Below are positions 36,809 through 39,825 of a DNA stretch of 39,825 bases, in pieces (within the stretch, counting starts at the first letter, position 1; every line of letters begins with the position of its first letter). Position numbers and translations under genes: made by a program. The notes below the pieces were generated by a model. It saw only the letters and a list, made by a program, of their open reading frames with translations. It did not search any database and was not told the DNA's origin. The DNA lies in assembly GCA_021789895.1 (NCBI GenBank), contig JAJYIU010000031.1:1-39825 (forward strand). Direction: 5' to 3'. The DNA is from Acidobacteriota bacterium (GTDB taxonomy: Bacteria; Acidobacteriota; Terriglobia; Terriglobales; SCQP01).

Positions 36809-36885
36809 CGGGGCGTGGCTCAGCCTGGTAGAGCACCTGGTTCGGGACCAGGGGGTCGGTGGTTCAAATCCACTCGCCCCGACCA
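36809..36885 (+). tRNA. tRNA-Pro (anticodon CGG)
   Basis: A 77-base tRNA. Acceptor CGGGGCG pairs with CGCCCCG. The anticodon stem CCTGG/CCAGG holds loop TTCGGGA with anticodon CGG (36843-36845), and the T-loop is TTCAAAT. CCA is encoded (36883-36885). The 3' half (36862-36878) is duplicated exactly at 37535-37551, so this gene has probably served as an integration site. Confidence 0.97.
36862..36878 (+). repeat. Attachment-site-like repeat, left copy (inside tRNA-Pro)
   Basis: GTTCAAATCCACTCGCC covers the T-loop and 3' acceptor strand of tRNA-Pro. This is where tyrosine integrases of islands and phages usually cross over. The identical 17-mer recurs at 37535-37551. Confidence 0.75.
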
Positions 36886-36934
36886 AAGAAAATCAATTAT
36901 TTAGAACCATTCTAAAGTTATCAACCAATCTAAT

Positions 36935-37599
36935 GTGGATGATTTTGTAGATAAGACCCTCACTATCGCCGCATCCGACAAGCTGCTCGCCACCATACCG
37001 CCAATACCCGTATACTGGCGCTTCGCATCTCCGGCCACTCCTTCGGCGATGACGAAATCCTTTCCGGCTGGACGCCCGGCGCGTGCGGCGTCTTTACTGA
37101 CGCCCTGAACCGCGCCCGCCGGCAGCTCGTTTCCGCATTTCAAGCCAAAGCCGCGCATCTCGTGCCCACCGCTCGGCAGACCGACATCTTCGGCGCACTG
37201 GCCAGGCTGGAGGTGGAATTTGGAGCGGATGCAGGCGGGAACAGCGTTCCTAAAACCGTCTGGATTTTTTCGGACATGGTGAACGATACACGGGAATTCC
37301 CGATGCCTCAGCTCCTGAAGCTAGGACCGGAGGTGATGCTCCAGCGCGCGCAAACCGAGCACCTGATGCTTCATTTGGCGCATATCAGAATCCGGATTCG
37401 GGGCGCCTCTACCGCCGGCCTCACGCCGTGGAAATGGCTCGCGATTCGTCAGTTTTGGACGCGGTATTTTATTGCTGCTGGGGCTCATATAGCGGTGTAC
37501 TCGCCTGCAAGCGTCAATCTGGGTGGTGGTGGCAGTTCAAATCCACTCGCCACGGACTTGATTTTAAAGGGCTTACGTGTGGATAATTCTGAAGATTGA
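36935..37599 (+). pseudogene. Frameshifted, 5'-truncated VWA-like protein gene
   Basis: Reading from 36935, one frame gives VDDFVDKTLTIAASDKLL then ATIPP. The similarity then continues in another frame as NTRILALRISGHSFGDDEIL. The two parts join cleanly if one A is restored near 36999-37003, so this is a one-base frameshift. The rest shows VWA-like features: TARQTDIFGAL (third MIDAS-like threonine), VWIFSDMVNDT (acidic strand) and a C-terminal pattern (TPWKWLAIRQFWTRYF) known from uncharacterised acidobacterial proteins. The region before the frameshift is too short for a full domain, so the 5' end is also lost. The last 20 codons run through the right attachment-like repeat and are probably not original. 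Non-functional, moderately sure. Confidence 0.6.
37535..37551 (+). repeat. Attachment-site-like repeat, right copy
   Basis: An exact copy of the 17 bases at 36862-36878, without the rest of a tRNA around it. It bounds a segment of about 670 bases that contains the VWA pseudogene and no integrase, as expected of a decayed element. Confidence 0.75.
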
Positions 37600-37654
37600 T
37601 GACGTGAGGCAACCTGCCTGACGCAGAGCTAAGGATTGCGCTACGATTTAATAG

Positions 37655-38155
37655 ATGGTTAGGCCACCGCGTCGGCATGAAAAACCGTTGCGCCTCATCG
37701 ATCCGGTACCCAGCAATGAGGAACTGGCTGGATTACGAAGACGCATCCGCTATCAAGGGAGTCCGAAGCATAAACTACATCCCGAACGTTTCGGCATGCC
37801 CACCTTTACCGGGAATAGGGGCGATGCTCTTTTATGTGATCACGATGCTGACGTTACCTTTAAGGACATAGGACGGATACCCTTTTGGATGAGCCGTGGC
37901 ATAAAAGCTGGCTTAATTGGGGAGGTACAGGAACAAGGCTTACCACGAGTCATCTGGGCCGTTGCCGACAACGGGTGGATATTTGAAGGGCGGATTACCA
38001 ATGTGACACAAGGCGAATTTCACGGTTATCCTCTACAACCAGGATCGCCAAATGCGCGATTGGTTTATGATCGCTTTTGCACCTGGGTAGAACGTCACAA
38101 GAAGCAAGTCAACAAATTGGCTTTACAGAAGTGCCGTCAGCAATATGGGTTTTGA
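37655..38155 (+). CDS. Hypothetical protein, first gene of a two-gene module
   Basis: A 166-residue soluble protein without signal or membrane segment. A basic N-terminus (RPPRRHEKPLR) leads to conserved-looking runs: HPERFGMPTFTGNRGDALLCDHDA, IPFWMSRGIKAGLIGE, RVIWAVADNGWIFEGRITN and GEFHGYPL. I do not recognise a named domain; proteins of this pattern occur as unnamed hypotheticals in mobile regions of other bacteria. It overlaps or abuts the next gene (ATG 38145 or 38157 against stop 38153-38155), so the two are translationally coupled. GC is clearly lower than in the chromosome to the left. No ribosome site is visible before ATG 37655. A toxin-antitoxin or defence role is conceivable but only from context. 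Confidence 0.7.
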   Translation: MVRPPRRHEKPLRLIDPVPSNEELAGLRRRIRYQGSPKHKLHPERFGMPTFTGNRGDALLCDHDADVTFKDIGRIPFWMSRGIKAGLIGEVQEQGLPRVIWAVADNGWIFEGRITNVTQGEFHGYPLQPGSPNARLVYDRFCTWVERHKKQVNKLALQKCRQQYGF

Positions 38156-39482
38156 TATGGCTACCGAGGCAATTTTTAGCATTGGCTACCGGCGCACGGA
38201 ATCGATTGAAGTGGCGCAAATCGCCATCTACGCATGTGGCAAGTGCGTGAGCCGATTGCTCCGTCGCGAAGAAAGAGAACCATCAGAATACCTGCTAGCA
38301 CCGCCAGAAGAGCTCGCGCGATGGTTAGCCTCGAACTGGTGGCGTATCCGTTGGGAAGCCGTTCCATTAACTGATGAGCTCACCGAAAGCTGGCGTATCG
38401 CCCACGATTTGCGCTCTGTAGGAGGAGGTTATGCATGGCCTAATCTATTAATCTGGGGCGAGGATGCACGAGTGGCTATAAGGGTACAGCCCGACCCAGT
38501 CGGCGTTGTAGGGCCAGTTCAGTTCCTAGCCCAAGCATTTGAGATGCTTCCAGCGGCTAATTTCGAGTCGGGAGTTGATCATTTTTTTCAACAAATCAGG
38601 GCTAATATTTCTACTGAGCTGCGGGAGCTAATCGATGCGCTATACCACGAACGGGTGGACCCTGAGCTATCGATTTGGCGCCGGCTTGAAGCTCGTTTGG
38701 GTTTCGATCCAGATCGTGCACCTGATTCGGTCATGAATGAGTTGGATGATCTCATGAACCGATACAAGGCTATTGATATTGAAGAGGCGGCATCGGCCGC
38801 ACCCGGACCCGATTCGGCGCGCTTGCTCCGCGAGGAAATTGAGCACGCGCAGGGGGAGCAGGCGTGGGAATGCAATCTTGCCCGCATCGGAGAACTAAAA
38901 AGTGCGGGATGGTTGCAACAACAACTAACCGGTAGACTATCTCAAACCGCGCCCTGGAAACAGGGTGAGATGGCAGCAATTCGCTTTCGCAGGGAAAAGG
39001 GGATTGCCGGACCCATTAGCAATAATTTGTTAAGTGAACTCTTAGAGGTGAAGCCGGAGGCATTTGACGCGTTGCCCCCGCAAACAAAGAGTCAGAAACT
39101 TCCATACGCGCTATATATAAGCGGCAATGGCAGTGATCGGATACTCCCTAGATCAAATTGGCCGGCAGGGCGCAGGTTTGAATTCGCACGCGCGCTGGGA
39201 GACTTCATAGGAATAGAGCCATCGAATAATCGAGAACTATCGCTCGCTCCTATTGCTCCATCCAAGACTCGGCGCCAAAAATTCCAGCGTTCGTTCGCCG
39301 CTACATTCCTCTGCCCTCTCGAGGAGCTGACCTCTTATATGAATACCGATCAGCCCGAAGAAGAAGACATCAGCGCAGCGGCCCAACATTTTTCTGTTTC
39401 CAACTGGCTCGTAGAGTCGACGCTGATGAACAATGGCCTACTACCACGTCGAGAATTCGGCCAAATAGTTGAAGGTGTGTAG
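38145..39482 (+). CDS. Hypothetical protein with degenerate ImmA/IrrE-like C-terminal domain
   Basis: A 445-residue soluble protein. The N-terminal half (WWRIRWEAVPL, SWRIAHDLRSVGGGYAWPNL) is unassigned. An acidic helical linker follows at about 195-240. The C-terminal 130 residues follow the ImmA/IrrE metallopeptidase layout: RRFEFARALGDFIG (343-356) where active members have RRFTxAHELGHxx, then QKFQRSFAATFLCPLEEL and FSVSNWLVESTLMNNGLL. Both zinc histidines and the Glu are replaced (R, A, D), so no protease activity is expected. Active ImmA proteins cut repressors of mobile elements or pair with XRE antitoxins; this one may only bind. The start may be ATG 38157, one base after the upstream stop. 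Confidence 0.65.
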   Translation: MGFDMATEAIFSIGYRRTESIEVAQIAIYACGKCVSRLLRREEREPSEYLLAPPEELARWLASNWWRIRWEAVPLTDELTESWRIAHDLRSVGGGYAWPNLLIWGEDARVAIRVQPDPVGVVGPVQFLAQAFEMLPAANFESGVDHFFQQIRANISTELRELIDALYHERVDPELSIWRRLEARLGFDPDRAPDSVMNELDDLMNRYKAIDIEEAASAAPGPDSARLLREEIEHAQGEQAWECNLARIGELKSAGWLQQQLTGRLSQTAPWKQGEMAAIRFRREKGIAGPISNNLLSELLEVKPEAFDALPPQTKSQKLPYALYISGNGSDRILPRSNWPAGRRFEFARALGDFIGIEPSNNRELSLAPIAPSKTRRQKFQRSFAATFLCPLEELTSYMNTDQPEEEDISAAAQHFSVSNWLVESTLMNNGLLPRREFGQIVEGV

Positions 39483-39825
39483 CCCGAAATCTGGAGTATA
39501 GCAATCTTGGCAATAATAGCAGAAGAGAAATCTAACAAGAAGAGGTCACTATACTCACGAAAATAGGGGTGTATCAGAATATATTTTCTGGCATGCCACA
39601 CGACTGTAGATGATTTTGTGGCGGCTCAAGCTCCCGCATTCAAATGGCCTCAAAATATCCTTTGCGAGTCGGCCGCAACAGGTGTAAGCGCCATCCAGAG
39701 GCCGTCTAGACTCAAGCGATAAACCCACTCAAGCTTGGGAAGTGGGCACTTCGGTTACGTGTCCATCTATTTTTAAATGGACACTTCGCAGCCCACTCAA
39801 CGCAAGCGCCAGACCTGGCCGATGG
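39483..39825. other. Terminal AT-richer region with repeats, possible mobile-element end
   Basis: No complete gene. A short open stretch (39602-39721, TVDDFVAAQAPAFKWPQN...) ends at TAA and may be a gene remnant. After 39680 short repeats cluster: CCCACTCAA at 39724 and 39792, and AAGCGCCA at 39686 and 39804. CACTTCG follows GG or GGA at about 39747 and 39782. The perfect 8-bp inverted repeat described separately also lies here. Such packing of repeats is seen at transposon ends, but the element would lie outside the window. Confidence 0.4.
39759..39784. repeat. Perfect 8-bp inverted repeat
   Basis: GTGTCCAT (39759-39766) and ATGGACAC (39777-39784) flank a 10-base AT-rich spacer. The T-run is inside the loop, so it is not a typical terminator; it could be a recombinase- or transposase-binding site. 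Confidence 0.6.

Follow-up and report, generated by a model that had tools for sequence, protein, structure and literature searches.

A putative two-gene toxin-antitoxin-like module whose large protein carries an ImmA/IrrE fold with a replaced metal site

INTRODUCTION

CapP, a CBASS-associated peptidase, and IrrE/PprI are catalytically active metalloenzymes whose substrate is an HTH repressor. The same ImmA/IrrE (Peptidase_M78) fold is also found in the antitoxins of two-gene modules. According to the account in PMC10440598, RosmerTA combines a toxin, RmrT, with an ImmA-domain antitoxin, RmrA; different toxins are involved, and the modules act in phage defence. Fusions of COG2856 with Xre were noted beside PIN and RelE toxins in 2009 (PMC2701414). 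TumE-TumA pairs are presented in PMC10584680 as experimentally shown toxin-antitoxin systems that inhibit translation.

Here we describe a pair of overlapping genes, encoding a small protein (P0001) and a large protein (P0002), from an Acidobacteriota bacterium. The window is the whole stretch of DNA that was analysed, the complete 39,825-nucleotide contig JAJYIU010000031.1 (assembly GCA_021789895.1). The pair resembles RosmerTA, as described in PMC10440598, in being a two-gene module with a (predicted) ImmA/IrrE-fold antitoxin that can be combined with unrelated toxins. However, RmrA is described as an antitoxin that has a protease domain and frequently also an HTH (PMC10440598), whereas the P0002 family lacks the HExxH motif in 14 of 14 members and P0002 has no HTH; P0002 also has an extra N-terminal half of ~260 residues, and P0001 would represent an unnamed toxin family. 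The link to TumE-TumA is a P0002 relative fused to a TumA-like HTH beside TumE, but P0001 is not a TumE by profile or hhalign and P0002 has no such HTH. As it has neither a protease motif nor a TumE domain, we regard the pair as similar to RosmerTA and TumE-TumA but distinct from both. HTH-ImmA/IrrE (COG2856/Xre) proteins with PIN partners form two-gene modules in the same phylum, and their C-terminal domain aligns with that of P0002; they differ in having HTH_3-type domains, HExxH in six of seven cases and the antitoxin gene first in the five loci with a PIN neighbour. CapP and IrrE/PprI share the modelled fold of P0002 residues 264-445 (Z 10.1-10.6), but P0002 has no metal site and no repressor gene adjoins the pair in the window. 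A search of a literature collection with a minority of the subscription journals and no bioRxiv preprints found no account of this pair or of a dead ImmA-type antitoxin; DUF6516 was mentioned in one of its papers.

RESULTS

The pair lies in low-GC DNA behind a tRNA gene, near the end of the window.

36809..36885, + strand: tRNA-Pro(CGG), probable integration site of a foreign segment (ARAGORN; sister-genome divergence)
37535..37554, + strand: repeat of the tRNA-Pro 3' end (36862-36881), probable attachment-site scar (sequence repeat)

The repeat is identical to the tRNA at 19 of 20 bp (one mismatch) and forms a second copy 673 bp downstream, just before the pair; its exact 17-bp core (37535-37551) had 0 expected occurrences in 100 shuffles. 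GC content is 0.519 in the pair, 0.550 in positions 36886-37654 and 0.652 in positions 1-36885. The sequence of a sister genome (G001) differs from the first bases behind this tRNA, and there too the contig ends after a short distance. The low GC content, the tRNA repeat and the divergence of the sister genome together indicate that the pair is part of a segment inserted at the tRNA gene. Two statements of an initial annotation of this DNA, that the pair lies in low-GC sequence and that integration scars are next to it, are thus upheld. The window contig terminates at 39825, 343 bp beyond the pair, and the far end of the insert is outside the contig. Used as a DNA query against plasmids, the insert gave no match.

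Two further elements were observed in this region. An ORF at 37162-37599 (145 aa) overlaps the tRNA repeat region; it matched no family in the four libraries searched (Pfam, PADLOC, NCBIfam and PHROGs) and is present only once in the genome. Its product presumably resembles VWA-like proteins of integrative elements, and the ORF is probably a gene remnant. A 20-nt inverted repeat (37650-37669 and 39752-39771, 75% complementary) flanks the pair and may be due to chance.

The two coupled ORFs reported by the initial annotation were both recovered, with 11 bp common to their reading frames.

37655..38155, + strand: small gene P0001, ORF with ATG start, 166 aa; predicted toxin
37769-37774: codons of the invariant His39-Lys40 of P0001
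38145..39482, + strand: large gene P0002, ORF with ATG start, 445 aa; predicted antitoxin/sensor
38157: second ATG of P0002

Comparison of the window with a related locus (L006) gave pN 0.32 and pS 0.83 for the large gene and pN 0.28 and pS 0.91 for the small gene, values in which synonymous sites are saturated. Both genes look constrained (pN < pS) and are therefore not chance ORFs.

Twelve intact pairs were detected, on six plasmids, one viral contig and five genome contigs. They comprise the window, G003 (on the same contig as L006), G121, G251, G327 and an IMG/VR contig, together with pairs from Allorhizobium, Rhizobium Pop5, Sphingomonas, Massilia, Tistrella and Agrobacterium. In every one of them the small gene precedes the large gene, with an overlap of 1-38 bp. 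In single-protein searches of 100 genomes of relatives, each gene matched two, and these were the same two for both genes. A profile search of 396 Acidobacteriota genomes found the small family in 5 and the large family in 11. The small gene was always beside a full-length large gene (5/5, one small gene being 5'-truncated), and these are the same five genomes in which the large gene is full length (G000, G121, G145, G251 and G327). Among the other large-family genomes, G188 has a broken pair and the remaining five match the C-terminal region only. The proteins are therefore found together and not, as would have contradicted the initial annotation, separately in most genomes.

Searches of PLSDB plasmids by tblastn returned four records for P0002 and five for P0001, and two other members used as queries added Tistrella, Agrobacterium, R. 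etli IE4771 and two Acidithiobacillus plasmids. The pair on the IMG/VR contig has neighbours that, by eye, include phage-like genes, a transposase and a serine recombinase; scans of viral contigs were otherwise empty or returned the same contig, and three tblastn queries against GenBank phages gave no match. Distances among the small proteins correlate with those among the large proteins (r 0.885; 0 of 10,000 permutations as high), a value to which shared descent contributes. In at least two records the small gene is shortened in the public annotation.

Three broken cases were seen. G145 has an intact large gene but has lost the first third of its small gene, and with it the His-Lys motif; R. 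etli NXC12 has a small gene divided between two frames and no large gene, with a transposase-like ORF next; and G188 has neither gene intact. Every intact small gene seen in the genomes, plasmids and viral contigs searched was accompanied by a large gene. These cases agree with the asymmetry that a toxin and its antitoxin would show, but three are too few to prove it.

Searches of Pfam, PADLOC, NCBIfam and PHROGs gave no credible match for P0001. Six members of its family had no Pfam match up to E 10, and 11 members had none in NCBIfam. Nine residues (R13, Y33, H39, K40, G47, C61, P97, W101 and P126) are invariant in all 12 small proteins, whose mean pairwise identity is 31%. This pattern, which includes adjacent His and Lys residues, suggests that P0001 is enzyme-like. 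AlphaFold2 models of P0001 and P0002 were built with three sequences. The P0001 model (pLDDT 50.4) has, with modest confidence, a four-stranded sheet at residues 86-126; it showed no recognisable toxin fold (Foldseek best E 0.7; VIA-align best Z 4.6), which counts against the toxin reading. We make no claim about its fold, and any likeness to ribonuclease toxins would be a guess. That P0001 might target RNA or translation is likewise a guess, drawn from the TumE and PIN toxins that accompany related domains and from nothing more. Identity of P0001 with TumE was considered and rejected: neither P0001 nor six family members had a Pfam match, and hhalign gave a probability of 0.1 against two TumE sequences.

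P0002 consists of an N-terminal half without a recognised fold and a C-terminal pseudo-ImmA/IrrE domain.

38934..39479, + strand: ImmA/IrrE (Peptidase_M78) fold region, P0002 residues ~264-445 (VIA-align and column alignment with HExxH-bearing relatives)
39189-39203: HExxH positions of P0002, Arg349 to Asp353
39276-39278: third ligand position of P0002, Gln378

Searched alone, P0002 gave sub-threshold matches to Peptidase_M78 (PF06114; E 0.2, 11.9 bits against a curated cut-off of 22) and RmrA (E 0.038). A Tistrella relative exceeds the Peptidase_M78 cut-off (29 bits, E 1e-6), and the RmrA profile matches 5 of 11 large-family members (best E 6.1e-5). The AlphaFold2 model of P0002 is of low confidence (pLDDT 41.7); its best ten Foldseek matches were all ImmA/IrrE-fold chains (E 0.008-0.08), none of which reached E 0.001. 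VIA-align of modelled residues 264-445 gave Z scores of 8.8-10.6 with PprI/IrrE, CapP and an M. tuberculosis regulator, and it is on account of the gap to the next unrelated chain (at least 8.8 versus 4.8) that we assign the model to the ImmA/IrrE fold. In a single hhalign comparison, 14 family tails aligned over 174 columns with seven HTH-ImmA/IrrE proteins of the same phylum (probability 99.2, E 2.8e-18), although these seven, having been retrieved with the family profile, are not an independent choice. A profile search of solved-structure sequences gave chance matches only. The tail of P0002 is an ImmA/IrrE (Peptidase_M78) fold, by its relatives and by its fold, and the description of both genes as unlike named families except for such a tail stands.

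The survey that yielded the HTH-ImmA/IrrE proteins matched 16 genomes; eight weak loci were examined, and seven of these contained an HTH-ImmA/IrrE ORF (L062-L067 and L069, in other Acidobacteriota). Five of the seven adjoin PIN-like genes, of which one passes Pfam DUF4411 and four, having no Pfam match, are PIN-like by eye.

The HExxH motif is absent from all 14 large-protein relatives. Its columns in the joint alignment read R-x-x-x-D in 11 and R-x-x-x-E in 3, and the column of the downstream Glu ligand is Q in every family tail. The changes at the zinc ligands (H to R, H to D/E and E to Q) are thus uniform across the family. As the 12 paired large proteins have a mean identity of only 27%, the same replacements in all of them point to a kept function and not to decay. 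The P0002 domain has lost its zinc site and so, presumably, proteolysis.

The N-terminal half of P0002 (~260 residues) belongs to no known family, and a Pfam search found no HTH; there is no separate DNA-binding domain. P0002 is large for an antitoxin, and its size and lack of a DNA-binding domain count against the antitoxin reading. Two Acidithiobacillus caldus plasmids carry the N-terminal half of the large protein without the tail, directly before an N-6 DNA methylase gene, and this half-domain seems to exist as a unit in its own right.

L042 4878-5585 and L043 5070-5558: N-terminal half alone, Acidithiobacillus caldus plasmids

A fusion in R. etli bears on the side of the module to which P0002 belongs.

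L041 4925-6888: R. etli IE4771 TumE and fusion locus

The TumE toxin of strain IE4771 (PF20126, E 9.1e-7, over the cut-off) is followed by a 529-aa protein with an HTH and a large-gene domain. Residues 37-95 of this protein match HTH profiles (HVO_A0114, E 7.3e-10), and the rest matches positions 55-428 of 441 of the large-gene profile (E 8.8e-40), with an HMM built without the IE4771 sequence. In Lichenicola, a gene annotated as DUF6516 (TumE) had no Pfam match at 0.01; the gene after it encodes a stand-alone HTH that is 42% identical to the N terminus of the IE4771 fusion. Fusion to a TumA-like HTH beside TumE places the large-gene domain on the antitoxin side, in the single case found. These sequences indicate that the antitoxin of TumE, an unrelated toxin, has acquired the P0002 domain. 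It could be that within the fusion this domain is only a sensor and the HTH alone is the antitoxin. The IE4771 locus, with its TumE and its fusion of an HTH to a dead ImmA/IrrE domain, may merit study by itself. The initial annotation suggested that such pairs are often toxin-antitoxin, anti-phage or element-maintenance systems, and the first of these possibilities gains independent support from the TumE/TumA fusion; the roles of the small and large genes within it are those that we infer.

It is also conceivable that these roles are reversed, with the large protein as the toxin and the small protein as its antidote. Makarova 2009 (PMC2701414) predicted COG2856 to be a Zn-dependent protease toxin beside Xre proteins. 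However, none of the 14 large proteins retains the peptidase site, the invariant polar residues belong to the small protein, the large gene of G145 persists beside a truncated small gene, and a related domain adjoins TumE, a proven toxin family. We regard reversed roles as highly improbable.

Known defence genes lie near 5 of the 12 intact pairs, as a raw count. In Massilia, DptF, DptG and DptH are directly upstream of the pair. G251 has the Druantia III genes DruE (E 0) and DruH, the nearer ~1 kb away. The Agrobacterium pair has restriction endonuclease annotations on both sides, one of which matches PDC-S73, and Rhizobium Pop5 has a type II methyltransferase ~2 kb downstream. A class I prokaryotic Argonaute ~7 kb from the pair and a helicase matching a PADLOC model are both upstream in G003.

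L032 298-1731 and 2449-4590: G003 Argonaute and helicase loci

The PADLOC search covered 62 of 102 neighbour ORFs, with the pair genes and ORFs judged spurious excluded, and considered the best 25 of 56 families. For six other intact pairs no defence gene was recognised, among the matches listed, within the stretch examined; the window, where the contig ends, is the twelfth.

These neighbours raise the possibility that we are dealing with an anti-phage pair and not a classical toxin-antitoxin system, in which the large protein would sense infection and the small protein would be an effector, harmless unless activated. The Dpt, Druantia III, Argonaute, restriction/PDC-S73 and methyltransferase genes are as this explanation would have it, and the structures that best match P0002 include CapP, itself a peptidase with this fold. 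However, the TumE/TumA fusion puts the large-gene domain with an antitoxin, the counts of defence genes are raw counts, and the seven pairs without recognised defence neighbours run against it. We consider this explanation unlikely.

Metabolic- or housekeeping-looking genes adjoin the pairs of G121, G145 and G251 (by eye) and of Tistrella (by annotation), which would be consistent with a regulatory or metabolic pair that merely co-travels on mobile DNA and has no toxic component. The scattered distribution (5 of 396 genomes), foreign composition and plasmid carriage are, however, unlike those of a metabolic pair, and such an origin seems to us quite improbable. Indeed, half of the intact cases (6/12) are on plasmids and, with the defence genes described above, they speak against a conserved housekeeping locus.

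DISCUSSION

Our results suggest that P0001 and P0002 probably form a two-gene, type II toxin-antitoxin-like module on mobile DNA, with the small gene encoding a predicted toxin and the large gene a predicted antitoxin/sensor. The role of this module is probably phage defence or element maintenance. The toxic gene, its neutralisation, the trigger and the biological role that we infer would fit together as follows. Toxin and partner would be made by translationally coupled synthesis from the small and large genes. P0002 would then bind P0001 directly and keep the toxin inactive, its dead peptidase domain serving as a surface for binding and sensing and not as a cutter. Disturbance of P0002, by phage infection, element loss or stress, would release the toxin.

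A broader proposal, which we put forward tentatively as a possibility somewhat short of an even chance, is that inactivated ImmA/IrrE domains with fixed Arg/Asp/Gln residues are modular antitoxin-sensors in a new class of toxin-antitoxin or abortive-infection systems. Such domains would operate with two or more toxins that are unrelated to each other, among them TumE and a new His-Lys family.

In summary, if our reading is correct, P0001 would belong to a toxin family for which searches of Pfam, NCBIfam, PHROGs and PADLOC returned no entry, and the ImmA/IrrE antitoxin fold would be able to work without proteolysis. Relatives that share one dead site make the question of whether an antitoxin of this kind needs to cut directly testable.
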